DNA of 39,877 nt from a virus, in IMG/VR virus record IMGVR_UViG_3300028558_000055, positions 1 through 39,877 of that record, one strand, 5' to 3'. The notes under the pieces were generated by a model. That model was not told the origin of the DNA and made no database searches. It saw only the letters and a program-made list of their open reading frames with translations. The translations under genes and the position numbers were made by a program. Positions 2,933-36,965 of the stretch are shown here, in pieces; positions within the stretch are counted from its first letter, which is position 1, and each line of letters opens with the position of its first letter.

Positions 2933-2942
2933 CACCGCCTCC

Positions 2943-4517: not shown

Positions 4518-4536
4518 TCGGGTGCCCTGCTCTCGG

Positions 4537-4932: not shown

Positions 4933-4937
4933 CTCCC

Positions 4938-5230: not shown

Positions 5231-7071
5231 CACGAACCCATCGGGAAGACTTCAATCGTCCCGCCCCAGCTGACGTTGTTTGCCGAAGCCCCGGTCACGC
5301 GGATGCGCACGTCGTTGCTGCTCGCATCGCACGTCACCGCCCAGGCGGTTTGGTCTTCGACCTGGAACATCACCACCGGGTTGGCGCAGCCGGTTGCCCC
5401 CCACGGACAGGTCGCCGTGCCGTCTACGACCGCGCCGGCGCCACCACGACGACCGCGGCACCACAGCTCGTAGGTGCCCGAGTCGTTCGACGATCCAGAG
5501 GCGCCGCCCGTGCGCCGGGCAGTGATGAACGCTTTGACGAGATAGGTCGTATTGGTCGCCAGCGTCGTATTGAACAGCGTCGTCGTCGTTGCGTCGGTGG
5601 TGGTGACGTCTTTCTGGTAGACGCTCATCCGCGGCTTGTCGGTGGTCGCGGAGGCGGCGGTGTCGATCCTGAATGCTTCGTTGCCACTGGTCGGTTCGCG
5701 CAGATGCAGCCGGGCGCTCGGCGTGGTGATACCGCCAATGCCAACCGAGTCGGCGCTGGCGTCGACGGTGACCAGTCCAGCGATCGTGTCGCCGTTGACG
5801 ATCGTGTCGTAGTTCGAGGAGTCGGCGTTGAAGGTGATCGCCGAGCCGGTCGCCGACATCGCCTGTTTCCAGGTGATCGCCGAGCCGGCGGTGGTGCCCG
5901 TGTTGTAGAAGAGGAAGTAGCTGCCGAAGATCGTGCCCAGCATCCAGTTGCTGGTTGAGTTGCTGCTTTTCCAGGTCGTGCCGGCGTCGTCGCTATAGGC
6001 GTCCCACAGGAGCAGGTTCTCGCCGTGCGTCAGCGGGTAGACGGAAAAGAGCGGGTTGTTATCGGAGGCGGTGGTGAATTGCAGGTGCGGGCCGGCAGTA
6101 GAGGCGTTGGTGCCGTCTACCGCGATCTTGGCCATGCCGACCGAACTCTTCGGCGCCGCACCGGTGCCGACGGCGATGGTGCCGGCGCTGGTGAGCGTCT
6201 TGTTGCTCGCGGTCTGGGTCGAATTCGTATCGACCATGGTCTTGAGGACCGATCCGGTACCAACCTCCAAGAGATCGTCGTCGCTGTCCCAGCAGGGGGC
6301 GCCATCGGTGGCGACCGTGCAGAGCGTCGAAGCGGTCAGGCTAGTCGCCCCCCCACTCGAGTCGCCGTATGCCGCGAAATGCTGCAGGTTGTCGCTCCCG
6401 CAGTAGCTGAGGAGTCCGCTTGCAACCCCCATCTTGCCGGCCGTGCTCGCGCCGCAGCTCGCCGTACTGCTCGCCACAAACCCGGCCTCAGTCGAGTCGG
6501 TCGCGAAGGTGCGGTCGGCCGAGAGATCGCCGCCGCCCGAGAGCCCCGCGCCGGCAGTGAGCGAGCGCGACTGCAGCGCGACGGCGGTGCCGCCCTGCTT
6601 CAGCGTCCCCGTGCTGACATCGAACGAACTCGAACTCAGCGTGACAACGGGATCGGTCCCCGACAAGTCGTAGGTGATCGTGCGCGAGCTATTGGCGCCG
6701 TTGAACACGGTCAGGTTGTTCACCTGTGTCGAGGGCGACCACGTGAGCGTATAGGTGCCGCCAGCGCCGCCGTCCGCGCCCGCAATGCCTGCGCCGGGTG
6801 TGAACACGCGCTCGTTGGTCAGCGTGCCGTCGGTGGCAAGCGTGAGGTATTGCGAGGAGGTCGGTGCGCCGCCACCGCCGCCGCCGAGCGCATTGCAGGC
6901 GCCGCCGATGCTGATTTCGTTGGCTGAGGTGACACATGCCAGGTCGTTCGCGGTCCATGCGGTTGGCTGCTGCACGAAGGTAGGCTTGCCGCCGGGCAGC
7001 CGCTCGACCAGCGTCGTTTGCGCAAGCGCCGATCCGCCCACGAGCCATAGGAGAATCACACACCAGCGCAT
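5230..7071 (-). CDS. Tail fibre-like protein with signal peptide
   Basis: A 613-residue protein. Its middle has repeats characteristic of tail fibres: A-G-A-G-L-S-G-G-G-D-L-S-A-D-R-T-F (about residue 170) and T-Q-T-A-S-N-K-T-L-T-S-A-G-T-I (about 285), as in phage host-recognition proteins. The C-terminal 130 residues form a beta-rich domain with several cysteines. Unusually, it begins with a clean Sec signal peptide (M-R-W-C-V-I-L-L-W-L-V-G-G-S-A-L-A-Q, cut likely after A17). It follows the hub gene directly, with GGAGG five bases before the ATG, and so occupies the classic receptor-binding-protein position. The secretion signal conflicts with cytoplasmic virion assembly and is shared with the genes at the right end of the window. 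Confidence 0.8.
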   Translation of the reverse strand: MRWCVILLWLVGGSALAQTTLVERLPGGKPTFVQQPTAWTANDLACVTSANEISIGGACNALGGGGGGAPTSSQYLTLATDGTLTNERVFTPGAGIAGADGGAGGTYTLTWSPSTQVNNLTVFNGANSSRTITYDLSGTDPVVTLSSSSFDVSTGTLKQGGTAVALQSRSLTAGAGLSGGGDLSADRTFATDSTEAGFVASSTASCGASTAGKMGVASGLLSYCGSDNLQHFAAYGDSSGGATSLTASTLCTVATDGAPCWDSDDDLLEVGTGSVLKTMVDTNSTQTASNKTLTSAGTIAVGTGAAPKSSVGMAKIAVDGTNASTAGPHLQFTTASDNNPLFSVYPLTHGENLLLWDAYSDDAGTTWKSSNSTSNWMLGTIFGSYFLFYNTGTTAGSAITWKQAMSATGSAITFNADSSNYDTIVNGDTIAGLVTVDASADSVGIGGITTPSARLHLREPTSGNEAFRIDTAASATTDKPRMSVYQKDVTTTDATTTTLFNTTLATNTTYLVKAFITARRTGGASGSSNDSGTYELWCRGRRGGAGAVVDGTATCPWGATGCANPVVMFQVEDQTAWAVTCDASSNDVRIRVTGASANNVSWGGTIEVFPMGS

Positions 7072-20183: not shown

Positions 20184-21152
20184 TTAGGCCACCACGGAGT
20201 TGAAGAAGTAGCCGAGGTCGGTGGACACGATCTTGTTGTCGAATGCGATCTGCCCCTCGACGCGGTCCGAGGCGAGAGCCTCCATGCGGAACTTCTTGAT
20301 GCCGACCGCCGTGCCGAGCCCCTGACTTACGCCCTGCCACTGGAAGGTGTAGCCAGCGGTTGGCGAGAGCAGCCCAGGCGTCGAGGTCGTGTAGCAAAGG
20401 AGTGCGTGCTTGCCGTGCGTGAAGCCGAATGAATCCGCCTCGCCCTCTTTGCCGGTGTTCTTGATCGCCATCGGGATGATGACTTCGTCCACGCCGAAGA
20501 TGCGAGCCAGGAGCGCGTCGCTTCCGAGCGCCGGATTCGCGGCCGTCGCGCCGCCGGAGATGCGGTCGACGATGTCCGGGTGGTGCTTCAACTTCGTGTA
20601 TACCTCGTATCCGAGCACCAGCTTGTTCGGCAGGAAACCGGTGTTTTTTAGGATCGTAGTTTTGCCAGTCTCGATGTCGGTGATCGGGTCTGAGCTGGTG
20701 TACGTCGACCACTGCGTCGGGGTGGTAAACGACGCATCCGTACCCCACTTGCCGGTCGCGAATGTGTCGGTGACCCACTGCACCTCTTGGCGCAGCATCA
20801 GGCGCTGAGACACGAAGGTGACCGCATCGAGATCCGGGCTGAGCGGCGCGTCCGCATTGGCGCGCACCTGGTCGCCTATGTCCTTCTTGTGCGCATATAC
20901 ATCGCACGAGTAGTTGTCGGTCGACTGCCCGTAGCCCGAGCCTGACGCCTCGGTGCCGTCGGCGCGGACTTCCGCCTCGTCGCGGAACCACGCCCCCTTC
21001 GGGTACGTGTAATACTTGTCGGATTGCTTCTGCACGGTGACGACCGGGAACACCTTGGTCGCCACGAACATGCTCGCGTTCTGAATATACGCGACCGACA
21101 TGTTCGTCAGGATTTGATCTACATGCACATCTGTTTGCGTCGGCTGAGCCAT
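20184..21152 (-). CDS. Major capsid protein
   Basis: A 322-residue protein in the capsid position (after protease, scaffold and decoration genes). Recognisable blocks are V-F-P-V-V-T-V-Q-K-Q-S-D-K-Y-Y-T-Y (about 35-51), K-G-A-W-F-R-D-E-A (about 52-60), Y-A-H-K-K-D-I-G-D-Q-V-R-A-N-A-D (about 86-101) and L-V-L-G-Y-E-V-Y-T-K-L (about 177). They match a widespread siphovirus capsid family with the HK97 fold. It assembles around the scaffold to form the icosahedral shell. There is no N-terminal delta domain comparable to HK97 gp5, in keeping with a separate scaffold gene. Confidence 0.88.
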   Translation of the reverse strand: MAQPTQTDVHVDQILTNMSVAYIQNASMFVATKVFPVVTVQKQSDKYYTYPKGAWFRDEAEVRADGTEASGSGYGQSTDNYSCDVYAHKKDIGDQVRANADAPLSPDLDAVTFVSQRLMLRQEVQWVTDTFATGKWGTDASFTTPTQWSTYTSSDPITDIETGKTTILKNTGFLPNKLVLGYEVYTKLKHHPDIVDRISGGATAANPALGSDALLARIFGVDEVIIPMAIKNTGKEGEADSFGFTHGKHALLCYTTSTPGLLSPTAGYTFQWQGVSQGLGTAVGIKKFRMEALASDRVEGQIAFDNKIVSTDLGYFFNSVVA

Positions 21153-22175: not shown

Positions 22176-22451
22176 GCGGGCCTCCTTTGATTGCTCGGTA
22201 TTGGGGTCCGCGGCCGACGCCGGCTCGGGCGCATCAACCTCGGAAAACAGTGACGTCAACTTGTTGAGCGCGTCCTTGAAGGCGCTCAGGCGGCTACCGC
22301 TCATCTTGCGGCCAACCTTCGCGACGGCTTCTGCCGCAACGGCTTCCGGCGCTGCATCGTCGCGCTTGAAGAGCAACACACGCGCGCCCTTGTTCGCTGG
22401 TTCATCGACCAGCGAGCCGAAGCGCACAGTCAGCTGCTTCAGGTGATTCAC
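21600..22451 (-). CDS. Capsid scaffold protein, long form
   Basis: A 283-residue protein between the prohead protease and the decoration protein. Residues 1-40 start N-H-L-K-Q-L-T-V-R-F-G-S-L-V-D-E-P-A-N-K-G-A, a stretch usually following XkdF-type proteases. From about residue 90 it is strongly charged and helical (Lys/Glu/Ala coiled coil at 115-165), as expected for an internal scaffold removed during maturation. Its ATG overlaps the protease stop (ATGA). A strong internal ribosome binding site starts a shorter in-frame product at 22175, so the gene may express two forms. Confidence 0.75.
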   Translation of the reverse strand: MNHLKQLTVRFGSLVDEPANKGARVLLFKRDDAAPEAVAAEAVAKVGRKMSGSRLSAFKDALNKLTSLFSEVDAPEPASAADPNTEQSKEARMADKEDSSKVGKADEKKSDAAVEAKPIEKVDDAAMAVALQKRLEDLEKRANDAETRAKSAEDVAKAERDQRLTAVYVAKAQALAGLSVKADEFGPVLKRCAELLPAEDFKVIETVLAGASEVAKQSKLYGQIGASGSESGDSATSKLNTLAAEMVTKKEATDYSDAIAKISANPEHRALVDNYSRESRARH

Positions 22452-22846
22452 GCCGGCACCCGAATGGCGCTGCCACCGATGGAGAACGCGCGAAGCGCGC
22501 CACTCTTCACTTTCGCGAAGACCTCAGGCTCGACGCGGTAGCCGACCCACCATGAGACGGACCGGTCATCAGCCTTGCCGATGCCCATCGCCGCACGCTT
22601 CTCGGGGGTCGAGACGAACGACTCGACGAGCTTCCCGATGGGCTGCTCGTCATGCATCTGGTCCGCCTGGCGCGACCAGACCACGTGCTCGTAGGCCGCC
22701 TGCTCGAGTTCGGCGGTTGAGATCGCGTCGCCCTGCGAGTCGACGACTACACTGCCATCGGCCTTGACGACCTCGGACAGCACACCAAAGACCAGGCGCT
22801 GCGCCTCATCGACTTTGGCGATCTGAACTTCCCGCTCCCACTCCAC
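22448..22846 (-). CDS. Prohead protease, XkdF/S78_2 type
   Basis: A 132-residue protein with the XkdF-like (Peptidase_S78_2) layout: V-D-E-A-Q-R-L-V-F-G-V-L-S-E-V (about 12-26), D-S-Q-G-D-A-I (about 36-42), D-Q-M-H-D-E-Q-P-I-G-K-L-V-E-S-F (about 62-77, with the catalytic-type His), W-W-V-G-Y-R-V (about 99-105) and a closing A-F-S-I-G-G-S-A (about 119-126, Ser candidate). It would process the scaffold inside the prohead. The start is GTG without an obvious ribosome binding site, 31 bases after a terminator, so its mRNA supply is puzzling. Confidence 0.82.
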   Translation of the reverse strand: MEWEREVQIAKVDEAQRLVFGVLSEVVKADGSVVVDSQGDAISTAELEQAAYEHVVWSRQADQMHDEQPIGKLVESFVSTPEKRAAMGIGKADDRSVSWWVGYRVEPEVFAKVKSGALRAFSIGGSAIRVPA

Positions 22847-22876: not shown

Positions 22877-22914
22877 AAAAGAAAAAGGCCGCCCCAGCGA
22901 TCTGGGAGCGGCCT
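22877..22914 (-). terminator. Rho-independent terminator, minus strand
   Basis: On the minus strand AGGCCGCTCCCA (22914-22903) pairs with TGGGGCGGCCT (22896-22886) with one bulged base and a 6-base loop, followed by TTTTCTTTT. It lies between the end of the sugar cassette (22983) and the prohead protease start (22846). It is the only classical terminator I see in the leftward operon. Confidence 0.85.
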
Positions 22915-22982: not shown

Positions 22983-23174
22983 CTATTCTTCGCGCCGCAG
23001 CAAGTGAGAGCGGACCAACTTCGCCGTGACCTTTTGTCCCGCAAAATGAAACTCCAGCGAGCCAATGCGGATTGGCTCGATGTCGCGCTGCATGGAGGCA
23101 ATCCACTCGCAGAACACGACCGCGTTACCGGAGAGCGAGACTGTGCCGCCGGGGGTGATCAGCGTTGCGGTCAT
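22983..23174 (-). CDS. 63-residue hypothetical protein ending the sugar cassette
   Basis: A small protein starting T-A-T-L-I-T-P-G-G-T-V-S-L-S-G-N and continuing W-I-A-S-M-Q-R-D-I-E-P-I-R-I. It is beta-rich at first and basic at the end (L-V-R-S-H-L-L-R-R-E-E). Its ATG overlaps the glycosyltransferase stop as ATGA, so it is co-translated with the cassette. A terminator follows about 70 bases downstream. No family recognised. Confidence 0.6.
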   Translation of the reverse strand: MTATLITPGGTVSLSGNAVVFCEWIASMQRDIEPIRIGSLEFHFAGQKVTAKLVRSHLLRREE

Positions 23175-23812
23175 GCCGCCTGCCGCCTGAAGTCGCGAAT
23201 CCGCTGCCGCGCAACTTCCCGCTGCCGATCCGCGAACGTATAGCCGTCCGCCGTCTGGCTATTGGTGACGTTTCCCAGGTGCTGCACGCGCCAGCGCGAC
23301 TGCAGGAGTCGGCAGCCCGCAACCCGTGCCCGAAACGAGAGGTCGACATCTTCGGCGTAGGCCCGCGGGAAGGTTTCTGCGTCCCAGCCGCCAAGAATGT
23401 TCCACGTGGAACGTCGGGCGGCGACGCACCATCCCTCGACGTACGGCTCGAGCACGCCGTCGACATCAAAGCCCTGCACGGTCGGACCTACCAGTGCCAG
23501 GTCGGGCGTATCTTTCTCGACCCGACTAAGCCAGGCGTTGCCGCCGGTGACATCATTGTTGAGCATCACCACGACGTCGCCGGTTGCCACCGCAAGCCCG
23601 ATGTTGTTCGCCGCGGCAAAATAGACGTTCTCGGCGTTGTGGATGACGCGCGAGCCACTGCCGAGCCGCGCCACGAGCTCGTCGAGCGCGCGCGCCACGT
23701 CGGGCGTTGAGGCCTGGTCGACGATGACGACCTCGGCGCCGGCGACGGTCGCCTCGTAGGCGGGAATCAGCTCGGGATGCTCGAGCCAGGGAGTGACGAT
23801 CGAGAGCGTCAT
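23171..23812 (-). CDS. GT2 family glycosyltransferase (second)
   Basis: A 213-residue GT-A fold protein. It starts L-S-I-V-T-P-W-L-E-H-P-E-L-I, has the acceptor-chain stretch N-A-E-N-V-Y-F-A-A-A-N-N-I-G-L-A (about 59-74), V-V-M-L-N-N-D-V (about 81-88, the DxD-like N-N-D) and A-E-D-V-D-L-S-F-R-A-R (about 153-163), all typical of rhamnosyl- or galactofuranosyl-type GT2 enzymes that transfer sugars from nucleotide donors. It is shorter than usual (250-350) but has the catalytic core. The start at 23812 overlaps the radical-SAM stop as ATGA; the upstream extension of the frame is not natural sequence. Acceptor unknown. Confidence 0.85.
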   Translation of the reverse strand: MTLSIVTPWLEHPELIPAYEATVAGAEVVIVDQASTPDVARALDELVARLGSGSRVIHNAENVYFAAANNIGLAVATGDVVVMLNNDVTGGNAWLSRVEKDTPDLALVGPTVQGFDVDGVLEPYVEGWCVAARRSTWNILGGWDAETFPRAYAEDVDLSFRARVAGCRLLQSRWRVQHLGNVTNSQTADGYTFADRQREVARQRIRDFRRQAA

Positions 23813-24852
23813 ACGAGATCCAACCTCATGCTGTCCTCCTCGACGGCGTCGATGATTTCGTTGCGGCGATTCCACACGCAGCGCGGGCAGGCATCGAGCA
23901 CGCCGGGTGAGATGATCGAGTCGACCAGCGCGCGGTGCTCCTCGCCATGCCACACGTCCTCGAAGCTCGCGCCGTGCTTGTAGTCGTAGCCGAAGCGCAG
24001 GTCGGTGCGGTCCTGGCAGACCGCGAACTCGCCCGTCGCCGTCAAACACGTTCCAGTCCACACGGCGCGGCAGCGGTCATAGGTTCGAGGCGTCCAGAAC
24101 CCCTCGAATTTGTCCGTGATCGCGAACACCTTGACCGTGTGCCCGAAGGCCGCGCGTGCGGCATCGCTCAGCCCGAGCGCCACCGTCATCACCCGCCGCG
24201 TCTCCGCGTCGAGCGCCTTGTCGGCGTAATAGCCCGGGCGGATGTGCACGAAGTCCACGCCGAGCTCTGCGGCGACGCGGCAAAAGTCGTAAATCTCTTG
24301 GTAGTTGTCGGGCGTCACCACAAAGGCGAGGCCGAAGTCCTGGCGCTTGTGCGGGATGCTGGTGCGGATCGCGTCAAGAATCTCGGCCCAATCCGACCCC
24401 TGACGGAAGTGGTGGTTGACCTTGTCGTGCGTCGCTGCGGTCCCAGCGTTCAGTGAAACACGCACGTAGTCGACGGCGGCCGCCACCTCGGGAATCAGCA
24501 ACCGGCCATTGGTCGACAGCGCCACCTTGAGCCCGCGCCGGTTCGCCAGCAGCATCGCCTCGAGCGTGTGCTTGTTCATCAGCGGCTCGCCGCCGCCGCT
24601 GAAATGAACGAGGCGCACGCCAACCCGCGCTGCGTCCTCGACCGCACGCAGCAGCAGCTCGCGCGGCAGCTGTTCACGCTTGTCCTGCTCGCCGTTGTGG
24701 ATGAAGAGGCAGAACTCGCAGCTATGGTTGCAGAGATTACTCGGGTAGATATGCAGGTCGACCGGATAGGGGATCTCGCCGGCGGCGATCTGCTTCAGCT
24801 TGTCGGCATGCGCGAGAATCTTGAAGCCGTTGAAGCGATGATAGTCACTCAT
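23809..24852 (-). CDS. Radical SAM protein with SPASM-like C-terminus
   Basis: A 347-residue protein. The cluster motif C41-N-H-S-C45-E-F-C48 (C-x3-C-x2-C) binds the 4Fe-4S cluster that cleaves SAM; S-G-G-G-E-P (85-90) is the SAM-binding block; L-S-T-N-G (112-116) is also typical. The C-terminus has C261, C269, C279, C322 and C325 in a SPASM/twitch-like arrangement that would hold one or more extra clusters. Relatives act on peptides (maturases), sugars or nucleotides. It overlaps the methyltransferase gene by 8 bases and the glycosyltransferase gene by 4, so it belongs to the cassette. A radical-SAM enzyme with SPASM inside a phage head operon is unusual. Substrate unknown. Confidence 0.88.
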   Translation of the reverse strand: MSDYHRFNGFKILAHADKLKQIAAGEIPYPVDLHIYPSNLCNHSCEFCLFIHNGEQDKREQLPRELLLRAVEDAARVGVRLVHFSGGGEPLMNKHTLEAMLLANRRGLKVALSTNGRLLIPEVAAAVDYVRVSLNAGTAATHDKVNHHFRQGSDWAEILDAIRTSIPHKRQDFGLAFVVTPDNYQEIYDFCRVAAELGVDFVHIRPGYYADKALDAETRRVMTVALGLSDAARAAFGHTVKVFAITDKFEGFWTPRTYDRCRAVWTGTCLTATGEFAVCQDRTDLRFGYDYKHGASFEDVWHGEEHRALVDSIISPGVLDACPRCVWNRRNEIIDAVEEDSMRLDLV

Positions 24853-25456
24853 GCCGCACCGCTATCCACACCGCCGGCACCGCGCCGACCATGTAGTCGA
24901 GTTCCTGCACGATCTGGCCACCCGCATCGGTGATCGCGCGCCGCAACTCCGAGCGCTCCAGCCAGAGTGACGGCACCGGGTTGGCGGCGTCTATGTCGTC
25001 GGTGCCTTCCTGTCGGAATTCGCCACGATAACCGCCAGCGGCGTCTCGGTCGTGATCGCCACAGTGCGTCGACAGGAACACCCACCCGTGTGACCATCCG
25101 AGGAGCCGCCGGATCAAGGCTGCAGGGTCCGGCACGTGGTACACGATGCCGTACGCCATCACGACATCGTACGTGCCGGGCAGATGGATCAGCCGGCAAT
25201 CGCCGTAGACGAACTGCACGGGCCGTGTGCGCTCGATGCGACGCGAAGCGCCAGGTCGTAGCTCCAGCGCCGTTGCCTGCGATGCACCCATGGCCAGCGC
25301 TGCCTCACTGTGCCGCCCATCGCGGGCGCCAATCTCGAGCGTTGCGAGATCGGTGAAGTCGACATGCGCCCGCATCAGCGCGCATTGCTGGTCGAACAGT
25401 TCAGGGATGAACCTGGTGAAGCCGCGCGCGACCAGTTCAGTAGCGAGCGGCGTCAT
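24845..25456 (-). CDS. SAM-dependent methyltransferase
   Basis: A 203-residue class I methyltransferase. Motif I is L-E-I-G-A-R-D-G-R-H-S (40-50), followed by A-L-E-L-R (63-67) as the acidic post-I strand, V-Y-G-D-C (83-87), Y-D-V-V-M-A-Y-G-I-V-Y-H-V-P-D-P (96-111) and W-V-F-L-S-T-H-C (125-132). This pattern is common in O-methyltransferases acting on sugars or lipids (Ubi/FkbM-like Rossmann folds). The start at 25456 overlaps the preceding glycosyltransferase stop as ATGA; a longer frame upstream is a shadow. Context suggests methylation of a glycan or glycosylated virion part. Confidence 0.85.
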   Translation of the reverse strand: MTPLATELVARGFTRFIPELFDQQCALMRAHVDFTDLATLEIGARDGRHSEAALAMGASQATALELRPGASRRIERTRPVQFVYGDCRLIHLPGTYDVVMAYGIVYHVPDPAALIRRLLGWSHGWVFLSTHCGDHDRDAAGGYRGEFRQEGTDDIDAANPVPSLWLERSELRRAITDAGGQIVQELDYMVGAVPAVWIAVRHE

Positions 25457-26136
25457 TCCAGCCCCCGAAACGCCGTCGGAATCCGCCCATCTTTCACCGC
25501 GCCCGCCACGTCGTTGTCCGCGATCCACTGTCGCAGGCATTGCGCATTGACCGCCCGCTGTTGGTTGAAGTCCGCCAGCTTCGCCTTGGTCGCGCCAACG
25601 CCCATGCTGGCGTCGAGATCGTGCAGGACGACGCCCGGCACGTAGGCGACGCGGAAGCCCTTGAGCCAACACTCGTAGGTAAACGCGACGTCCTCGTGAT
25701 GCTGCCCCGGCCAGACCGGGAAGCGGATGCCGGCATCAATAACCTGCCGGCTGATCCACATACATGAGGCCGTGACGTGCGCGACATAGCTCGGGCGGAA
25801 GAGGTCAATCAGGTTGCCCTGCGGCCGCAAGTCGCCGTTGGGTAGCGCGTGAAAGCCGGCGCTGGTGATGTTGCCGCGGGTGAAGAGGGTAAAGCCGATG
25901 ACGTCGGCGTGCTGGTCGACCTCGGGGAATGTGTGAAAGGTCGACGGAGTCAGCGTGATGTCGTCGTCCAGAAACAGCGCGTCGTCGTTGGCTTGGTCGA
26001 GTAGCGCGTTCGCGGCGTTGGCCCAGCCGAAACGAGAGTCGGTGAGGTAGCCGTTGCGTTCATGCCAATCCAGAGATTCTGCATGTTCTAGCCCCCGCGG
26101 ACAGCGTTCGCCGGTGGTCGCGCAGAGGATTTTCAC
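25453..26136 (-). CDS. GT2-type glycosyltransferase (first)
   Basis: A 227-residue protein of GT-A style. F-L-D-D-D-I-T-L (55-62) is the metal-binding DxD motif, and H-H-E-D-V-A-F-T-Y-E-C-W-L-K-G (146-160) followed by V-A-Y-V-P-G-V-V-L-H-D (163-173) is the catalytic E-D block plus His. A-S-C-M-W-I-S-R (123-130) is the usual middle segment. The N-terminus (M-K-I-L-C-A-T-T-G-E-R-C) is short compared with most GT2 enzymes. It is coupled to both neighbours by ATGA overlaps. Donor and acceptor are unknown. Confidence 0.82.
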   Translation of the reverse strand: MKILCATTGERCPRGLEHAESLDWHERNGYLTDSRFGWANAANALLDQANDDALFLDDDITLTPSTFHTFPEVDQHADVIGFTLFTRGNITSAGFHALPNGDLRPQGNLIDLFRPSYVAHVTASCMWISRQVIDAGIRFPVWPGQHHEDVAFTYECWLKGFRVAYVPGVVLHDLDASMGVGATKAKLADFNQQRAVNAQCLRQWIADNDVAGAVKDGRIPTAFRGLE

Positions 26137-26378
26137 GCCGTCACCCCCGCCTCAATTTGATGCCAGCCGGTGTCGAGCCCCATACGTTCAGTGAGCCTAC
26201 ACCATCGGCATTGTCGTATATGCTCGGTAGCCTCCGTGGTGAAGCCATGTACGCTGATGCCATAGGTCCATTGATGCCAACCGCTGATATGCCCCACTCG
26301 TTCTGGACATCGGACGGTAGTGGCGGACTGTGGATCTTCCAATTGGTAGGCAGTGACACTTTCAAGCATCGTGGTCAT
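26133..26378 (-). CDS. 81-residue Cys/His-containing hypothetical protein
   Basis: A small protein with C24 (V-R-C-P-E-R-V-G-H-I-S-G-W-H-Q-W) and a later pair in R-Q-C-R-W-C-R-L. Together with several histidines this could bind zinc, but spacing is not that of a known finger. Its ATG overlaps the GT4 stop as ATGA and its end overlaps the GT2 start, so it is translated within the cassette. Function unknown. Confidence 0.6.
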   Translation of the reverse strand: MTTMLESVTAYQLEDPQSATTVRCPERVGHISGWHQWTYGISVHGFTTEATEHIRQCRWCRLTERMGLDTGWHQIEAGVTA

Positions 26379-27577
26379 GCCGCCCTCCTAAGCGCCGGCG
26401 CCACTTCCACCGGCGCGTTGATCCGCTCCTCGCACTCGGCCAACGCCGGCAGCCACTGCTCGGCCATCACCTTGTCTGCGTCGTAGGCGAGCGCGCCGGT
26501 CCGCGCCTGCTCTCGACGAGCGGCCATGTCGGTTGCGCGGTAGGCTTCGTCGAGTTTCGCCGCGATGGCTTCTGCCCGCGGCCGGAACCACCAGGAGTTG
26601 AGCGGATTCCATTCGCGCTGCGCGTCGCACTTGTCGACGAGGAACCCGCTGAAACACAGCTCGGGGCACGCAGTCCAGTTGCCAACGATGACCGGCACGC
26701 CGCACGCCTGCGCCTCGAGCGCCGGGATACCGAAGCCCTCGCCGCAACTGACGTTCATGAACACGTCCATCGCGTTGTAGACGCGGCGCATGTGCTCGGT
26801 ACTGAAGCCGAGGAGGTTCGCGTACTGATCGCAGGCGACCCAGTCGCGCCCATGCTCGAGCCCGAGCCCTGCCGCAATCGTCACCAGCGGCACCCCACCG
26901 TATTCGCCGTGCTCGCCAAGCGAGGTGTGCACGTAGAGGAGCGCGTCGGGGTGCTGCGACTTGAACGCCGCGAACGCCGCCATGTGCTCGGGCAGCGCCT
27001 TGCGCGACGGCCAGCCCTTGTTCGCGGCGACCATGCCGACGACATAGCGATCGAGCGGGAAGCCGAGCGATTGGCGTGCTTCGGCTTGCGGCATCGGCGA
27101 GAACTCCGCGCAGTCGACGCCGTGCGGCACGTAGAGCGCATCAAGACCGCCGGCGCGCATCACATCGAGTCCGAACTTGCTGTAGGCGATCGGCACCGCG
27201 GCCTGGTGCAGCTTGTCGACCACCTTCATGGTGCGCGGATCACCGTTGGGCTCCATGTCGATCGGTGCCCAGGCAATCCACGGCACGCCGTCGTAGTGCT
27301 CGGGCTTCATCACCCACGCATCGATCAGCGTCATGATCGCGTCGGCGTTGAAGTGCTTCGCGTGTGCGCCGACGACGTCTTGGCCGAACGGCTCGAGATG
27401 CTTCGGGTAGAGCTGGATGCCTTCCCAATTCAGCATCGAGCCTTCGACGCCGTAGAAGCCCAGCACGGCCGACGGATGCCCGGCACGCACGAAGCGCGGC
27501 GCGAAGAGTTTGGTTTGGTTGCCGTAGCCCGTGCTCGCAAGCGGGCTATTAGAGCACCACATCAACCGCAGCGACAC
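26375..27577 (-). CDS. GT4 family glycosyltransferase
   Basis: A 400-residue GT-B fold enzyme. The N-terminal half starts with S-N-S-P-L-A-S-T-G-Y-G-N-Q-T and contains V-P-H-G-V-D (about residues 151-156 counted from the GTG). The C-terminal domain has V-G-M-V-A-A-N-K-G-W-P-S-R-K, Y-V-H-T-S-L and C-G-E-G-F-G-I-P-A-L-E-A-Q-A-C-G-V-P-V-I-V, the E-x7-E nucleotide-sugar binding motif of GT4. I chose the GTG at 27577, with GAGGAGGAG just upstream and 13 bases after the minor-head stop; the frame extends to a TTG at 27601. It transfers sugar from an activated donor, acceptor unknown. Placing a full-length GT4 right after the minor head gene is unusual. Confidence 0.88.
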   Translation of the reverse strand: MSLRLMWCSNSPLASTGYGNQTKLFAPRFVRAGHPSAVLGFYGVEGSMLNWEGIQLYPKHLEPFGQDVVGAHAKHFNADAIMTLIDAWVMKPEHYDGVPWIAWAPIDMEPNGDPRTMKVVDKLHQAAVPIAYSKFGLDVMRAGGLDALYVPHGVDCAEFSPMPQAEARQSLGFPLDRYVVGMVAANKGWPSRKALPEHMAAFAAFKSQHPDALLYVHTSLGEHGEYGGVPLVTIAAGLGLEHGRDWVACDQYANLLGFSTEHMRRVYNAMDVFMNVSCGEGFGIPALEAQACGVPVIVGNWTACPELCFSGFLVDKCDAQREWNPLNSWWFRPRAEAIAAKLDEAYRATDMAARREQARTGALAYDADKVMAEQWLPALAECEERINAPVEVAPALRRAA

Positions 27578-27590
27578 ATTCCCCTCCTCC

Positions 27591-28469
27591 TCACAACACA
27601 AGGTCGACGCCGCACCGGCAATTTACGTGCGCGGGCGCGTCGTCGATCTGATCGCCGTCACCGGTGGTGAACAGCCCATCATACGGCACACGCTGGCCGT
27701 CCATCGGCTCGCAGGTTGGACACGTTGCCTCATCTTCCGCCGTCGACCAGACGCGTTCCGCCTCGGTCTTCGTAAACAGCCCTTGGTCGGCGGCCTGTTC
27801 CCACGACTCGCGGCGACCAGCCGCCAGCGCAGTCGCAAGTTCGGTGCGGGCAATCGTCAAGGCCCGTAGTCGCAACAGCTCGTCCGCCTTTCGCGCGGTC
27901 AGCACATCGATGCGCACCGGCGCCACGCCCTGGTCGGTCAGCGTCTCGCGAAGATTCTCGACGGCCGCGCTCTGTCCACTGGTCAGCCCAACCTGCTCCT
28001 GAATGCGATCGACCTGCTGTGTGACCGGAACGCCGCTTGCGTACATCGTCGAGAGGAGTTGGCGCATCGCATCGCGCGTCTCCTCGATAATGCCCGTGAT
28101 CTGTGTGGCGGCGCGCTGCTGCAGGAAGCGAAGGCCGCGGTCGTTGACGACGTTGAATTGAAATTCGTTGACCCGTGTCTCGAAGGTGATGTCCTTGCGG
28201 ACGAGCTTCGCCTTCAGCTTCCGCGCGGCCTCGTCGCCGGCGTCCTCGTAGGCGTTGCGCATCAGGCGTAGCAGCTCGGTCCTGAAGCGCTGGGTCAGGA
28301 TCTCAAGCGGCAGCACGGTGATGACGTTGCCGGCGAGTACCGCGCGGCCGAGTGCCGCCTGGTTGATCGCGGCACGGAGTGCAACGAACGCCACCAGCAC
28401 GCGGCGCTGTGCGATGGTCTCAAGCCGCTGCGCACGCGCGAACTTGGCGATGGTTCGCCGTGCGTTCAC
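27591..28469 (-). CDS. Minor head protein, SPP1 gp7/Mu F type
   Basis: A 292-residue head morphogenesis protein following the portal gene. The C-terminal domain is diagnostic: A-R-T-E-L-A-T-A-L-A-A-G-R-R-E-S-W (about 205-221), V-W-S-T-A-E-D-E-A-T-C-P-T-C-E-P-M-D-G-Q (about 239-258) and P-A-H-V-N-C-R-C (about 279-286), giving four cysteines and histidine for metal binding. The N-terminal part is helical. Proteins of this family enter the prohead with the portal and may be ejected with DNA. The start overlaps the portal stop as ATGA. Confidence 0.88.
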   Translation of the reverse strand: MNARRTIAKFARAQRLETIAQRRVLVAFVALRAAINQAALGRAVLAGNVITVLPLEILTQRFRTELLRLMRNAYEDAGDEAARKLKAKLVRKDITFETRVNEFQFNVVNDRGLRFLQQRAATQITGIIEETRDAMRQLLSTMYASGVPVTQQVDRIQEQVGLTSGQSAAVENLRETLTDQGVAPVRIDVLTARKADELLRLRALTIARTELATALAAGRRESWEQAADQGLFTKTEAERVWSTAEDEATCPTCEPMDGQRVPYDGLFTTGDGDQIDDAPAHVNCRCGVDLVL

Positions 28470-29737
28470 TGATTGACCGCCTCGCTGTCCTGCTCCTCGA
28501 CCGGCAGATCGGCCGCATCGCGCAGGTAGCGCTCGGTGGCGCCATCGGCGTCGGGGGTGAGCATTCCGGCCGCCGAGAGCTTCTGAACGTAGTCGGCGAG
28601 CCCGGCGAGGTCTGGTTTCTCGATCTCGGCATGCTGCAGCTGCGGATACGGCGGCGGCCAGCCGTTGAGCTTCATGAGCCGCGGGATAGCGAAGCGGTTG
28701 AACTGCTCCAGCACCGTGCTGAGCAGTGAGGCAATCGCCGTCACGTGCAGGTCGGTCTTGTCGGCCGAGAGGCTGAAGCTGCCGACCGTCTCGTGTCCGA
28801 GTAGGATGAAATCCGAGAGCAGCGCCTGCAGCATCCGCTGCTCATAGCGCTGGATGATTTGGGACGTATCGAATTGGCGCGACCCGCCAGAGGTCAGGAG
28901 TGTCAGGTCGTACTGCTTCTCGCCCTTCTGGTTATAGGCGAGCGGCATCAGAATGCCCTCTTGCTCGTCGCGACGAATGTTGGTGACGAGCTTCTTGAAG
29001 GCCTGCTGCGAGGTGAGCTGTTGGCCGCTTGTTGCTGCGACCACTTCGGGCGGCGCCCAGACCACCGGCAACCCCGCCAGGTCGCGCTCGATGCCGATCG
29101 CCTCCAGCGATTGAATGCGCTTGACGAACTTCCAGGCGATCACGCAGTTGCGCAGCAGTGAGCGCCCCTCCGGCGACGCCTTGTTGTCGAGCAATCGAAA
29201 CAGCAGGAACTTCTCCGCCGGAATGCGGATCAAGCTGTATTTCGGCGCCGGGCGCTGCCAGAACGCGATGAGCGCGCCCGTGTTGTCGTCGAACTCCCAG
29301 TGGTCGAGCGATTCCTGTGAGCGGATGACGAACTTCGACCAGCCAACGCGTCCGTCATCGCGACGTTTATAGACACTCTCCAGCAGCGACCAGCCGTGCT
29401 CTTGCATCGTGAGCGCCTGCGAGAGTGTGGCGCCCCACGGCTGCTCAAGCTGCTCGATATTCTCCTGCAGGAACGCCGCGCGGTCCTGGTCCTGCGGCGA
29501 ATCGCTGGCCGCCTTCGCCGTGATGGTCACCCGGCGCAGCAGCAGCTCGGTTGCGAGCAGTGCGCCGCCGATGACCGCCGAGTTGTCGCGGATCTCGCGA
29601 TAGAGCTTGTGGCGCTGCACCGGGCTGCGCAGTTCGGGCACGAAGTCATCATCGATGATGCCCGAGAACTGCTTGAGCCCCGTTGCGCCGAGTTCCGTGA
29701 AGGCGTCGGCCTTCTCCACTGCCTTGCGTCGTGCCAT
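28466..29737 (-). CDS. Portal protein (DUF935/Mu gp29-like)
   Basis: A 423-residue protein between large terminase and minor head protein. It forms the dodecameric ring through which DNA is packaged. Blocks visible: V-I-G-G-A-L-L-A-T-E-L-L-L-R-R-V (about 55-70), a central alpha/beta core with E-H-G-W-S-L-L-E-S-V-Y (about 112-122), R-S-L-L-R-N-C-V-I-A-W-K-F-V-K-R (about 190-205), and the C-terminal helices with F-N-R-F-A-I-P-R-L-M-K-L-N-G (about 350) and A-A-G-M-L-T-P-D. These fit the DUF935 portal family. The ATG at 29737 has GGAGG five bases upstream; a GTG one codon earlier is less likely. Confidence 0.87.
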   Translation of the reverse strand: MARRKAVEKADAFTELGATGLKQFSGIIDDDFVPELRSPVQRHKLYREIRDNSAVIGGALLATELLLRRVTITAKAASDSPQDQDRAAFLQENIEQLEQPWGATLSQALTMQEHGWSLLESVYKRRDDGRVGWSKFVIRSQESLDHWEFDDNTGALIAFWQRPAPKYSLIRIPAEKFLLFRLLDNKASPEGRSLLRNCVIAWKFVKRIQSLEAIGIERDLAGLPVVWAPPEVVAATSGQQLTSQQAFKKLVTNIRRDEQEGILMPLAYNQKGEKQYDLTLLTSGGSRQFDTSQIIQRYEQRMLQALLSDFILLGHETVGSFSLSADKTDLHVTAIASLLSTVLEQFNRFAIPRLMKLNGWPPPYPQLQHAEIEKPDLAGLADYVQKLSAAGMLTPDADGATERYLRDAADLPVEEQDSEAVNQ

Positions 29738-29747
29738 CACCGCCTCC

Positions 29748-31910: not shown

Positions 31911-32335
31911 GGCGTCGTTCCTCCTCCAACCACCGCCCCGCGCTGCACATGCAGACCAACCACGCACAGCGGGCGGTTGCCGTCGCTATCGAGCGGGCGG
32001 ATGCGAATCTCGTAACTCTTCCCGGTGCGGCAGCCGCTGACGGCGCAGCCCTGATCGGGGGAGAGCGTAAAGGCGGCGTCGGTGCCGCTTGTGCTCGAGG
32101 CGGTCAAGATCGCACTCGGCGCCCCGTCGTTTCGCGGCGTGCCGGTCTCAGTCACCGTGATCCAGTTCGCCGGCTGCGAGCCGGTGTCGACGAGCGAGCG
32201 CGCAACAAATCGGCAGCCGAAACTGTCAATCTCGACCGGGTCCATCACGATGCCGTTGGTCGGCTTTTGCGGTGGCGCCGGCTGTGCAACCGCAAGCGCT
32301 GGCACCAGCAGCGCGACCCAGAGTATACGCGTCAT
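31907..32335 (-). CDS. Small exported protein with signal peptide
   Basis: A 142-residue protein that starts [19 protein letters not shown], a Sec signal peptide with cleavage likely after A17. The mature part is beta-rich, with four cysteines (in [15 protein letters not shown] and L-C-V-V-G) and F-V-A-R-S-L-V-D and [10 protein letters not shown] segments. Cysteines plus signal peptide suggest a folded periplasmic or extracellular product. It is coupled to both neighbours by ATGA overlaps. Family not recognised. Confidence 0.75.
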
Positions 32336-32976
32336 TCAAACCACCTCCGTCGCGAGAACTCCCACCAGTGCCGTCGTTCCGCATAAAATTGCCGATCGGG
32401 TTGGGCGCGATCCCATACACGTCGCCGATCGACCTCGAAGCGCCGCGAGCGCTCCATGCCGAAGAGGAGCCGCGGCGTGATACCGGGCGTCCCCACGGTC
32501 GGCGTATTGCTGGCAAGCGGCGTCGGCGTCGGCGTGTTGGTCGGTAGCGGCGTGAACGTCGCCGTCGCGGTCCTGGTCGGCGTATCCGTGACCGTCGGTG
32601 TCTCGGTCCGCGTATAGGTCCACGTCGCCGTCGCCGTATTCGTATCGACCGGCGTGTTCGTATTGGTTGCCGTCGGCGTCGGCGTTTTGGTGAAGGTGCG
32701 CGTTGGGGTGTTGGTCACGGTGCCGGTATCGGTCGGCGTGTTGGTGACCGTCCCCGTGTTGGTCGCGGTCGAGCCCACCGGCGGCGTGTCGGTTGCCGTG
32801 GGGGTCAAGGTCGCGGTTGGGGTGTCCGTGACGGTATGGGTCGGCAATAGGTCGCCGCTGTCGCAGCCCTGACAATCGAACCCCTGCCCCGAAAAGCCAT
32901 GCGCGCGCATCGCAACGAAGAGCGACAGCAAGAAGAGTGTCGCGATCAGGAGTTTGATGTCGGAGAAGCGCCACAC
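32332..32976 (-). CDS. Thr-Pro-rich repeat protein with N-terminal anchor
   Basis: A 214-residue protein. Residues 7-27 are hydrophobic ([16 protein letters not shown]) and may be a membrane anchor or uncleaved signal, with D-C-Q-G-C just after. Residues 47-162 are a low-complexity tract of T-P-T, T-N-T and T-A-T units. The C-terminal 45 residues are basic and aromatic ([14 protein letters not shown]). Such tracts are usually flexible, extended linkers, often glycosylated, between a surface anchor and a domain. It sits 8 bases after the SGNH-like gene and overlaps the next start as ATGA. Confidence 0.7.
32491..32838 (-). repeat. Thr-Pro coding repeat tract
   Basis: DNA of this stretch encodes dozens of short Thr-Pro, Thr-Asn-Thr and Thr-Ala-Thr units and is correspondingly repetitive (recurring gtcggcgt/gtgttggt patterns on the plus strand). 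Such tracts slip easily during replication, so length may vary between related phages. Confidence 0.7.
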
Positions 32977-32984
32977 TCATGACC

Positions 32985-35900
32985 TCATGGCGTCGGCGTC
33001 GGCTGCTGACACACGCGACTCTTGGCGGTCGGTGACGTGCCGATGATGGGGGTGGCCGCAGCGCAGACAGGATCCGCATACCGGCCGCCGTCCCTGGTGC
33101 AGTCCGCATCGATCTCGCACGCCTGCCAGACGCCATCGGCGGCACACACGTCGCCGTGGTCGTAGCCGAGGCAGTCCGCCGTCGTGTTGCAGGGCGTCTT
33201 CTGCCGCGTGCAGAGCGGCGGCACCATCTCGCGCGAGCAGGTGCCCGATGCGCACAGCGAATCCTTGGCCGGCCGCTTGCGGGCGCGGGTGTTGTCGCCT
33301 GCGGGGCAGAGGCTCAGCTGCTCCCCGACGCAGCGCTTGTCGGTGCCGGCGCCGGGGTCGATGTCCTCGCAGGTGAAACCGGCCGCACAGTCGCTATCGA
33401 CCGAGCAGCCGCAGGCGTTCACACCCGGCGTGCGCGTCCCGCAGGCACCTGCTCGCGCGGTGTAGGTTGGCGCGGGCGTCGGCGACGGGCTGGCACCGAT
33501 GACCGTCGGCACTGGCGTCGGCTTGGTGCAATCCGCGTTCGTCGTGCACGCGACGTCACAGAAGCCGCAGACATCCGAGGTATCCCCCGAACAGACCGGA
33601 TAGAGGCGATTGAACGACGCGGCGGCAATGCGGCTCGTCTCGGTCGCGCCGCCGATGAAGTTGTGAATGCCGTCGAACACCAGCGAGCCGAAGGTCGCGC
33701 CCGCAATGCGGTCATCGGCGTACTTCGAGGCGAAGTGCGTATCGGCGACGATCGGCGCCGTGCGCAGGATGTCCTTGGCGAGCCGCACCGTATAGTTCGC
33801 CATCTCCTCATCGGCGCCCATCTGGAATGACTCGACGTAGGGCATCTGCATGCGGTGCGCGCCGGCGGCGAGCACGGTTGCGGTAATCGACTGCTGGCGC
33901 GCGACCTCCAGATCCGAGCGCAGCCCGCCGGGTGAACTTGCCAGCCGCTTGGCGTCGAGGAGCTGCGTCGCCGCGCTCGTGTCGATCGCGTAGTTGAAGC
34001 CGGTCCCGCAGGCGTAGCAGGTGCCCGTGCCCGTGTTGCAGAGACCGCCCATGGCGCCGGCAGGCGAGCAGTCCGCGTCGGTTGCGCAGGTGATCGAGGC
34101 GCAGGTCGGCGTGCAGTACTTCGTGCCGCCGCTGACGCAGTTATTGTGCTGGCAATTCCCGCACGTGCCGTAGGCATCGTCCCAGGTGCCGTCGGTCGAC
34201 TCGTACGAGACGCACGTGCCCGAGGGGCAATCGCCGTCCGCGTTGCACCGCTCGTAGTGCTGGCCCGACTGCACCACGTTGATGCCGCCGCTCACGCACG
34301 TGCCCTGGTGATAGCAGCTCTGCGTCGAGGGGCTTGTGCACTGGCCGCATTGGTCGTCGTACTGGCACGGCCACACTGGATCTTGATGCCCACTGCAATA
34401 GCCGGTGCATTTCGAGCCTGTGCCGTAGTGGCTATCGCCAGTGCAGTCCGCGTCGGCCGTGCACGTCTTGCGCGTCACCTGGTAGGTGGTCGGCGTGGTC
34501 GCCGCCAGGGGGCAGGCTTGGCGATACCAGCGGTCGTTCAAGACCGGCACCTGCAGACCGAAGATGTTCGATGACGCGGTGCATTCCGCGATGCCGTAAC
34601 CGATCGCCTCGTTCAGCCCGCAGATGTCGATGACGTAGTCGGCCGCGTACCGCGTGCACGTCTGTCCGGTCGGGCAATCGCCGTCGAGCTCACAGGACTG
34701 CGTGGTGGTCGCCGAGCAGTGCCCCCAGTCGCCACGGATCAGGCGGCAGGGCGGCGCATGGCTATGCGGGTCGGCGATGATTGCCGGCAGCACCGAGCCC
34801 CACCACTGCGCGGGCATGGTGTCGCGCCCGCAGTTGATCAGGTTGGTAACCTGTGGCGCCTTGACTGAGAATTGATTGACCCAGTTGAGCGCGGTCAGGC
34901 ACAGCGCCGTGGTGCCGCAGGTGCAATCGGCGGAAGTTTCGCACTGCATCGAGCAGGTGCCACTGACGCAGGCGCCGCCGTCGCAGTCCGCATCGGAGGT
35001 GCACGCGGCCGTACATGCACTCGTGCCGTCGATTGACAGACACGTCCCCGTCTTGGTGCCGCGCGTAATCGAGTCGCAGCCGGTGACCACGGTCACGACG
35101 CCGTCGCCGTTGAGATCCTGCACATTGCGGTCGGCCTGCGGGCTTGGCGTGGTGACATCGATGTACGCCATGGCGGCGGTGCAGCGCACGTTGCTTGCGC
35201 CCGCCGACCAGCGGTCATAGCCGAGCTGCAACGCGTCAATGGTCGACTCGGTCCACGCGACATCCCCGCTGCCGAAGTCGGTGGCGAGCGTCTGCGAGAG
35301 GATCGTGCCGGCGCTGCTACTCACCACGGTCCCGTTGGGCCCTACCGTGTCGGTGCCGTTCGAGCGCCACGAGAGCCGGATATTATCGCTCGAGGACGTG
35401 CCGCAGCAGTTGACCACGCCGCGCACCGAGGCGACCGACGCGGAGGTGGCCAGTGGCGTCAGGTCCGTCAGGCCGAACTGGTCGATGCCGGTGCTGGCAC
35501 TCTTCTGGCGCGTGTCGCCGGCAGTGCAGCTGGTAGCCGTTCCGCCGCCGGACCAGTCGTTCAGGCAGTCCCAGGCGGTGCTGCTCGGCGCGCAGGTGTT
35601 CGACCAGTTGCTGATCGTGTTGCCGTTGGCGTTTGGGAAGAGCGCTTCGAGATAGCCGACGCCGATCGGGTGCAGGTTGTCGACCACGAAATCGTCGACG
35701 TCGAGGGTGTAGGCGGGAAAGCTCGCGTAGTTGGCTACCGCGCCGGTTGCGGGCGAGCCAATGCCGGCGCCCGCAATATCGCAGGCGTTCCCGGCGCAGC
35801 TATCGGGCGCGTTCAGATCCAGGCTGAACGTCTCGGTCGGTGTGCCGTCGACATACAGGGAGCACGCGACCGTATCGGCCGTGAGAATCTGCCCCATCTC

Positions 35901-36965
35901 GACGGCATGGCCAGCGAGTGTGCTGGCGCAGTTGACCGTCGCTGAATTGGTGGCGGGGTAACTGGAGAAATCCAGATCGCCCGGCTCCTTGCCGTGATAC
36001 TGCGGGTGGTAGCTGAAGCACCCGGCGCTATCGACGGCGACCGTGAGATAGCAGCCAATCTCGCTGTCTTGCTTGATGGTGAGCGCGACCACCGACTGCC
36101 CGGCGGGGATGGTCGGCGTCGTCTTCCAGTACAGGCGCGCATAGGCGCGGTCAGACAGATCCGCATCGAGCGTTGCCGGCGTGCTCCATGATTCGGCGGT
36201 GTTGGCCGTGGTGCTGAGGTGCAGCCCCGCCGCGCCGTGCACGGCCGCCGCGCTGGTGTATTCCGGCGAGCCGACTTCTACCCCGTCCTCCGCGGTCTGC
36301 GTGTCCCAGCCAGTGACGAAGACGCGGCCGGCCGGCGGGCTGTAGGAAATCGAGACGCGGAGCGCATCGACCAGCGCGGCGCGTGTGGTGGTCGCGTTGG
36401 TGTTCAGCACACTGACGGCGATGCCGAAGTCCGTGTCGCGAATGTCGGCGGGCGTCCACGACACGCCCCAGAGATCGAACGAGCCGCCGCAGCTCTTGAA
36501 CGTGTCCGCGCCGGTCCATGCGCCGACACAGCCCGTGCCGGTCGCGCGACTGGTCGACGCGATCGTGCCGTCGGATTTGATCGCGCGAATGTCCTGCACG
36601 ATGATGGTCGGCCCGCCCTGCTGCACCTCCAGCTCGGCGGTGATGCCCTGGATGACCTTCGCATCGTCGAGCGGGGTGGTGGTGAAGCCGAAGCCCGTGC
36701 ACTTCAGCCACTGCGACTGCGCGGAGGCGGCGAGACTCGCGGAGGCACGCGCGTCGTCGGACGCCTGCGCGTTACTGGCGCTGGTCCAGGCTGTGCGACC
36801 GACGCAGGCGCCGCTGGTGCAGGTCGCCGACGAGGGGCAATCCGCAGAGGTCGTGCACGTGTTGTAGGTGACGCAGGTGGATGGATAGTTCGGCGGGTTG
36901 GTAGTGACGGCGTGCGCGGTGGTCGAGATGAGCAGCGCAGCGATGAGAACGACGGCGCGCATCAC
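32985..36965 (-). CDS. Cysteine-rich exported SGNH-hydrolase-like protein
   Basis: A 1326-residue protein with a Sec signal peptide (residues 1-19, ending A-H-A). Residues 30-55 hold a small Cys module; 60-600 are beta-rich structural modules. From about 620 there is a split SGNH/GDSL hydrolase pattern: G629-C-D-S632-I-T (block I), N711-C-G713 (block II), G783-L-N785-E (block III) and D1098-G-I-H1101 (block V, catalytic Asp and His). Between blocks lie many cysteine-rich modules of the T-x-D-A-D-C type (about 650-690 and 740-985), with more at 1120-1320. The SGNH span of about 500 residues is more than twice normal. Such enzymes de-esterify surface polysaccharide, so host glycan deacetylation is a reasonable guess. 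The ATG overlaps the fibre-like gene (ATGA). The hydrolase call depends on these motifs only. Confidence 0.72.
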   Translation of the reverse strand: MMRAVVLIAALLISTTAHAVTTNPPNYPSTCVTYNTCTTSADCPSSATCTSGACVGRTAWTSASNAQASDDARASASLAASAQSQWLKCTGFGFTTTPLDDAKVIQGITAELEVQQGGPTIIVQDIRAIKSDGTIASTSRATGTGCVGAWTGADTFKSCGGSFDLWGVSWTPADIRDTDFGIAVSVLNTNATTTRAALVDALRVSISYSPPAGRVFVTGWDTQTAEDGVEVGSPEYTSAAAVHGAAGLHLSTTANTAESWSTPATLDADLSDRAYARLYWKTTPTIPAGQSVVALTIKQDSEIGCYLTVAVDSAGCFSYHPQYHGKEPGDLDFSSYPATNSATVNCASTLAGHAVEMGQILTADTVACSLYVDGTPTETFSLDLNAPDSCAGNACDIAGAGIGSPATGAVANYASFPAYTLDVDDFVVDNLHPIGVGYLEALFPNANGNTISNWSNTCAPSSTAWDCLNDWSGGGTATSCTAGDTRQKSASTGIDQFGLTDLTPLATSASVASVRGVVNCCGTSSSDNIRLSWRSNGTDTVGPNGTVVSSSAGTILSQTLATDFGSGDVAWTESTIDALQLGYDRWSAGASNVRCTAAMAYIDVTTPSPQADRNVQDLNGDGVVTVVTGCDSITRGTKTGTCLSIDGTSACTAACTSDADCDGGACVSGTCSMQCETSADCTCGTTALCLTALNWVNQFSVKAPQVTNLINCGRDTMPAQWWGSVLPAIIADPHSHAPPCRLIRGDWGHCSATTTQSCELDGDCPTGQTCTRYAADYVIDICGLNEAIGYGIAECTASSNIFGLQVPVLNDRWYRQACPLAATTPTTYQVTRKTCTADADCTGDSHYGTGSKCTGYCSGHQDPVWPCQYDDQCGQCTSPSTQSCYHQGTCVSGGINVVQSGQHYERCNADGDCPSGTCVSYESTDGTWDDAYGTCGNCQHNNCVSGGTKYCTPTCASITCATDADCSPAGAMGGLCNTGTGTCYACGTGFNYAIDTSAATQLLDAKRLASSPGGLRSDLEVARQQSITATVLAAGAHRMQMPYVESFQMGADEEMANYTVRLAKDILRTAPIVADTHFASKYADDRIAGATFGSLVFDGIHNFIGGATETSRIAAASFNRLYPVCSGDTSDVCGFCDVACTTNADCTKPTPVPTVIGASPSPTPAPTYTARAGACGTRTPGVNACGCSVDSDCAAGFTCEDIDPGAGTDKRCVGEQLSLCPAGDNTRARKRPAKDSLCASGTCSREMVPPLCTRQKTPCNTTADCLGYDHGDVCAADGVWQACEIDADCTRDGGRYADPVCAAATPIIGTSPTAKSRVCQQPTPTP

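Follow-up and report, generated by a model that had tools for sequence, protein, structure and literature searches.

Why should the late head operon of a phage contain genes for three glycosyltransferases (GTs), a methyltransferase (MT) and a radical S-adenosylmethionine (SAM) enzyme? The question is raised by IMG/VR record IMGVR_UViG_3300028558_000055, whose whole stretch of 39,877 nucleotides we refer to as the window, and in which these five enzymes together with two small open reading frames (ORFs) form a cassette of seven genes. An earlier note, made from the letters of the window alone, had proposed that the cassette is dedicated to assembling and modifying a glycan, possibly on virion proteins. 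Our analysis favours the following reading, to which we assign a probability of roughly three in four: the seven genes are a late-expressed virion-glycosylation cassette that builds a methylated O-glycan, edited by the radical SAM enzyme (rSAM), on a virion protein.

A seven-gene cassette closed by a terminator

All seven cassette ORFs are present on the minus strand (22983-27577), in the 5′ to 3′ order GT4, small1, GT2a, MT, rSAM, GT2b and small2. The minus-strand gene order around them is terS, terL, Mu-type portal, Mu-F (MuF) head protein, cassette, terminator and S78_2 protease, and 3′ of the protease follow a scaffold-like gene, a decoration-like gene, the major capsid protein (MCP) and then neck and tail genes. 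A gap of 13 nt lies between MuF and GT4, the junctions from GT4 onward are overlaps of 4, 4, 4, 8, 4 and 4 nt, and small2 is 136 nt from the protease. The terminator consists of a 27-nt hairpin followed by U5CU4 (–30.8 kcal/mol, z = –3.7), and none of 200 shuffled sequences was equally good. Both the tight coupling of seven genes between minor head protein and prohead protease and the terminator closing the unit, as claimed in the earlier note, are therefore borne out. A sigma-70 promoter scan of the cassette region found none, a result that is uninformative at 65% GC.

The cassette matches the structural genes in GC and GC3 (0.653/0.829 versus 0.647/0.828), which argues against a recent import from a host whose composition differs. 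Identical cassette proteins occur on three additional IMG/VR contigs, so an assembly artefact is disfavoured as well; one sister contig of 44,676 b is 99.5-99.98% identical to the window across the compared parts.

GT4 relatives lie in phage virion modules

GT4 matches PF13692 (2e-12), and its AlphaFold2 model (pLDDT 94.9) finds MshA and then chlorovirus B736L as the best PDB folds in Foldseek. The motifs NKG..RK and E280-x7-E288 are intact and are kept across 44 relatives, and as judged from the model the protein is a retaining GT-B enzyme. Searching IMG/VR with a GT4 alignment, and picking relatives by sequence alone, returned at least 594 of them. We examined the context, within the stored DNA, of 68 non-redundant loci (cited below by L numbers), and a virion structural gene lies upstream of GT4 in 62 of these. 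The nearest such gene is the MCP or the adjoining decoration gene in 55 of the 62, usually across a gap of 50-130 bp; the next downstream structural gene is visible in 40 of the 68 loci (a neck gene in 34), and both sides are visible in 35. From GT4 to the next structural gene lies a variable set of genes, in which Pfam recognizes GT2 in at least 26 of 98 island proteins, radical SAM in 9, methyltransferase in about 7, epimerase in 5 and UDP-galactopyranose mutase in 4, besides other GTs.

The site of the GT4 gene varies. The gene follows MuF in L033 as in the window and the neck in L192, stands beside tail completion or tail tube genes in L019-L022 and L198, and elsewhere adjoins the MCP, but it is invariably within the virion module. 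The GenBank phages Mae-JY09 of Microcystis, phiPsal1 of Pontimonas, S-CBS4 and ctQWt234 show the same pattern, and the capsid families at such loci are phrog_1005, 1328, 1357, 29 and 544/267. In five loci (L016, L037, L043, L049 and L085) the GT4 genes are extended to 618-686 aa by an additional C-terminal domain.

Had the cassette been acquired as a host polysaccharide cluster, a finding that the earlier note had named as undoing its proposal, the same genes should be found in host chromosomes. A scan of 84,980 GTDB bacterial and archaeal species genomes with the GT4 alignment gave 13 relatives, and all 13 lie in phage structural modules. We reject the host-cluster origin, against which the absence of any cellular GTDB locus for GT4 argues strongly. 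The GT4 family is thus apparently confined to phages and anchored beside the major capsid gene, which suggests that virion glycosylation is common among uncultured phages and makes the family a sequence handle for finding it.

The cassette enzymes look soluble

Among the remaining cassette proteins GT2b is a clear GT2, while the match of GT2a to PF13641 (4e-4) is weak and under the cut-off. Relatives of GT2a stand directly 5′ of rSAM in L111 and L112, and a viral scan using GT2a alone recovered only copies of the same phage. No transmembrane segments were found in the cassette proteins, and no flippase, GtrA, GtrB, Wzx, Wzy or membrane GT was seen in the cassette, so the acceptor is likely cytosolic.

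These observations bear on whether the cassette instead alters the lipopolysaccharide (LPS) or another envelope glycan of the host, in serotype conversion or superinfection exclusion. The sister contig (G001) carries a tyrosine-integrase-like gene (L204:187-1269), from which the phage is probably temperate, and in pelagimyophages GTs in a tail-fibre region that also bears rSAM gene cassettes have been interpreted as modifying the host LPS or O-chain (PMC7029224), both of which would suit such a role. However, Gtr serotype conversion involves a membrane-bound GtrA/GtrB/Gtr(type) set, and the cassette enzymes all look soluble; furthermore, the genes stand in the late head operon and not among lysogeny or early genes, and in many lineages their relatives are neighbours of MCP or tail genes. 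Solubility without a flippase or membrane partner, late-operon position and phage specificity together favour modification of the virion, and we consider a host-surface role unlikely.

The radical SAM enzyme leans towards sugars

The rSAM protein matches PF04055 (3e-17), and its match to SPASM (PF13186) is below the cut-off. Among 34 sequences the CxxxCxxC motif (C41/C45/C48), GGGEP (86-90) and the cysteines C261, C279, C322 and C325 are invariant or nearly so. The auxiliary cysteines that the earlier note had described as SPASM-like are therefore real, but only four are conserved in the C-terminal part rather than the seven of a full SPASM domain, and from its sequence the domain is a four-Cys Twitch with a single auxiliary cluster.

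The AlphaFold2 model of rSAM (pLDDT 87), a prediction that the earlier note had asked for, is closest in Foldseek to the sugar-acting enzymes DesII and BlsE, followed by PqqE, SkfB and SuiB, and BlsE is also the best sequence neighbour. Both BlsE and DesII modify the sugar part of a nucleotide or nucleoside, although they are only ~14-22% identical to rSAM and belong to antibiotic pathways rather than virion modification. Foldseek against viral models returned generic phage radical-SAM proteins only. In L171, L150 and L013 relatives of rSAM adjoin, as read from sequence, two-part thiamine diphosphate (transketolase-like) genes, aminotransferases and epimerases, which is consistent with sugar chemistry and with a sugar-making pathway in other phages. 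As a separate observation, up to six radical-SAM genes are clustered at one phage locus in L236, L237 and L243.

The earlier note had kept modification of a peptide as an alternative, in the manner of ribosomally synthesized and post-translationally modified peptides (RiPPs): small1, small2 or a virion peptide rich in Ser/Thr would be matured by rSAM and then glycosylated by the GTs. Enzymes with Twitch or SPASM domains often act on peptides, the peptide enzymes named above are among the structural neighbours, and one radical-SAM clade is linked to Ser/Thr tracts (see below). Yet no match to an RRE or PqqD, no peptidase, no exporter and no precursor family was recognized in the cassette, and the nearest neighbours in both sequence and structure are the sugar enzymes BlsE and DesII. 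Nor do the small ORFs behave as conserved substrates, a role for which we tried and rejected them: neither matches Pfam or PHROG, small1 has no NCBIfam match, profile hidden Markov model (HMM) matches of both are confined to near-identical copies of the same phage, and they are absent from other rSAM cassettes. The small Cys/His protein and the second small protein of the earlier note are thus real ORFs, now corrected to orphans. With little positive support, maturation of a peptide is improbable as the function of the cassette; rSAM itself may act on a sugar, to which its predicted fold and sequence neighbours lean, or on a peptide, as the Ser/Thr link would allow.

Radical SAM cassettes at other loci

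Relatives of rSAM that lie within head or tail modules of phages belong to several separate clades and capsid lineages. The clade of the window contains L111 and L112 (support 100/99), with rSAM one gene after the MCP in L112 and about 4.8 kb after it in L111, and other lineages are represented by ctQWt234, L043 and L006. Cassettes of rSAM and GT genes follow the MCP in ctQWt234, L112, L043 and L006. A further clade, A6 (support 100/100), includes L210, L211, L217 and L215, which shares its contig with L135, among others. In L210, L211 and L215 the cassette occupies the portal-to-protease site, and rSAM is followed in turn by a ~110-aa gene, the gene or genes before the MCP, a decoration-like gene and the MCP itself, which belongs to the family of the window's MCP; in L211 the gene before the MCP includes a Mu-like protease (PF10123), and a GT-type gene lies upstream. 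In L217 a Mu portal is followed by GT2, MT and rSAM. L211 also holds, at 1532-5449, a GT9/GT4-type fusion protein split by an intein with a LAGLIDADG endonuclease.

The earlier note would have been weakened if homologous phages lacked the cassette at this locus. This is so for MT835491, whose site is empty, but L033, L210, L211, L215 and L217 carry GT or rSAM cassettes there. In Arthrobacter phage Kovu (L032, 11036-15854) RNA ligase and nuclease genes fill the same MuF-to-MCP interval, which is therefore a general cargo site.

In the gut phage MT835491 terS is immediately preceded by a ParB-like gene, by one resembling a GT and by an rSAM (L010, 6374-8951). This arrangement, and the known activity of some phage GTs on modified bases, would fit a cassette that glycosylates phage DNA. 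However, in the window and the sister contig, whose ORFs were inspected but whose early genes were not family-scanned, no base hydroxylase, thymidylate-synthase-like or TET/JBP gene was recognized. A location in the head-tail module from phage to phage is also at odds with this function, and DNA hypermodification is very improbable.

Ser/Thr-rich proteins as candidate acceptors

We considered loci of ≥10 kb and counted as a Ser/Thr tract 60 aa with an S+T content of 50% or more, which reached 97%. An ORF with such a tract is present in 7 of 10 A6-clade loci, compared with 4 of the 50 rSAM loci outside the clade and 0 of the 40 with GT4 only (p = 2e-6). Because Ser/Thr tracts in three seeds were part of the reason for choosing the A6 clade, we also removed the four seed loci, and the association held at 4/6 versus 4/90 (p = 3e-4). 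In L164 a Ser/Thr-rich protein of 1781 aa follows the tape-measure region and ends 12 bp before rSAM, downstream of which lie GTs and methyltransferases. Separately, ORFs with 90-100% Ser/Thr over 60 aa stand near radical-SAM/GT genes in L137, L164, L170, L211, L221, L148 and L161. Such tracts may serve as glycan acceptors, and the link between A6 rSAM and Ser/Thr proteins offers a candidate acceptor that is directly testable.

The window has a mucin-like protein of its own (214 aa), with a Thr/Pro repeat of ~120 residues that reaches 63% T+P over 60 aa and no Pfam match. Large late-strand proteins elsewhere in the window (minus strand, 5230-7071, 32985-36965 and 36962-39877) have signal-peptide-like starts, an unexpected feature in proteins of a virion that is assembled in the cytoplasm.

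A proposed model for virion glycosylation

The proposal of dedicated glycan assembly on virion proteins thus gains from the position of GT4 beside MCP or tail genes in several lineages, from its absence from cellular GTDB loci and from a cassette at the same portal-protease site in the Corndog cluster (discussed below). The sequences establish which genes are present, how the operon is built, that the catalytic motifs of GT4 and rSAM are intact and that such genes recur, specifically in phages, within virion modules; for the acceptor, the sugar, the order of the steps, the radical SAM reaction and the biological benefit we infer the following scheme. The GT2 and GT4 enzymes would draw on host nucleotide sugars in the cytoplasm of the infected cell to assemble a short glycan directly on Ser/Thr residues of a protein of the virion. 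Gene position favours the capsid or decoration protein as acceptor, with the mucin-like Thr/Pro protein as an alternative. The methyltransferase would cap a sugar hydroxyl, and the Twitch-type rSAM may edit a sugar, either ahead of its transfer or afterwards, by epimerization, dehydration or oxidation. The resulting sugar coat could shield the particle or alter its surface interactions.

Several points weigh against this reading. That GT4 adjoins the MCP is in part a matter of shared descent within one morphogenetic lineage, so that the 68 loci cannot all be taken as independent trials; since the loci are partly kin, the variety of positions and capsid families is a better argument than the counts. 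The MuF-protease gap of the homologous phage MT835491 is 15 bp, which makes the cassette optional, dispensable cargo. In the window the mucin-like protein is about 8 kb upstream of rSAM, and this rSAM falls outside the clade with the Ser/Thr association. The fold of rSAM is also near those of the peptide-modifying PqqE, SkfB and SuiB. Finally, by profile comparison the GTs of the window are not homologues of the Corndog and Che8 enzymes, a superfamily-level GT2 match aside.

More broadly, we tentatively suggest that many tailed phages coat their virions with rSAM-edited O-glycans, some of them on mucin-like Ser/Thr-tract proteins. If this is true, both a radical-SAM reaction and a bacterial-virus 'mucin' would be new to phage particles.

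Table 1. Coordinates of the cassette, its flanks and candidate acceptors in the window
Feature	Position	Strand	Basis
GT4, predicted retaining glycosyltransferase, 400 aa, GTG start, phrog_2170	26375..27577	-	Pfam/PHROG, AlphaFold2, Foldseek, motifs
small1, 81-aa Cys/His-rich orphan	26133..26378	-	no family match
GT2a, putative GT-A-type glycosyltransferase, DDD motif residues 57-59	25453..26136	-	weak PF13641
MT, predicted class I SAM-dependent methyltransferase	24845..25456	-	PF13489 1.9e-7
rSAM, predicted radical SAM enzyme, C-terminal Twitch domain, one auxiliary cluster	23809..24852	-	motifs, AlphaFold2
GT2b, predicted glycosyltransferase, NND motif residues 85-87	23171..23812	-	PF00535 2e-11
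small2, 63-aa orphan	22983..23174	-	no family match
Intrinsic terminator	22877..22913	-	hairpin 22887-22913, T-run 22877-22886
Mu-F-like minor head protein, upstream flank	27591..28469	-	PF04233, phrog_3517
Mu-type portal	28466..29740	-	PF06074 1.7e-28, phrog_113
Prohead protease, downstream flank, start codon uncertain	22448..22846	-	Peptidase_S78_2, PF14550 1.3e-16
Major capsid protein, candidate acceptor	20184..21152	-	phrog_1005 1.2e-90
Mucin-like Thr/Pro-rich protein, hydrophobic N-terminus, candidate O-glycan acceptor	32332..32976	-	composition

Comparison with known systems

The earlier note had seen in the cassette its best candidate for an undescribed system, and this is right in part. 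Virion glycosylation by phage-encoded GTs is already known, demonstrated so far in a few mycobacteriophages, whereas the radical SAM part is apparently new: we found no description of a radical SAM enzyme in virion glycosylation in the searchable open-access literature. Its presence would imply that the cassettes do more to a glycan than transfer sugars and methylate them, a point of interest both for the biology of phage particles and in the search for new glyco-enzymes.

GT4 resembles chlorovirus B736L (PDB 3OY2), its best PDB profile match, which has a GT-B fold and comes from a virus with a glycosylated capsid, but one whose host is eukaryotic (algal). B736L binds GDP-mannose, and its acceptor is not established (PMC9614988). 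Che8 gp108-110 (cluster F) are, like the window's enzymes, encoded by three tandem GT genes and have been linked by others to capsid glycosylation, and the C-terminal half of gp108, on reading the sequences, appears methyltransferase-like and similar to Firecracker gp33; however, these genes lie at the far end of the genome and include neither a radical SAM enzyme nor a GT4.

The closest parallel is found in the cluster O mycobacteriophages, which have an O-methyltransferase and three GTs between the portal and the capsid maturation protease (PMC4351075). These genes are reported to modify the capsid and tail tube (PMC4351075, PMC11600133, and PMC12619734 citing Freeman 2023). We compared Firecracker (gp33-36; Corndog counterparts gp35-38) as the representative. 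The Corndog cluster shares with the window a co-directional set of an MT and three GTs at the portal-protease site (checked in Firecracker), and the window differs from it in its radical SAM enzyme and two orphan ORFs. Homology to the Corndog and Che8 enzymes, which we tried as an explanation of this likeness, was mostly absent by profile comparison: GT4 gave no match, MT no homology and GT2a a weak match, and GT2b matched Firecracker gp35 (HHalign 93.6%) at the level of the GT-A superfamily only. Lacking homology of its parts, the cassette would therefore work like the Corndog system but with enzymes of a different family.

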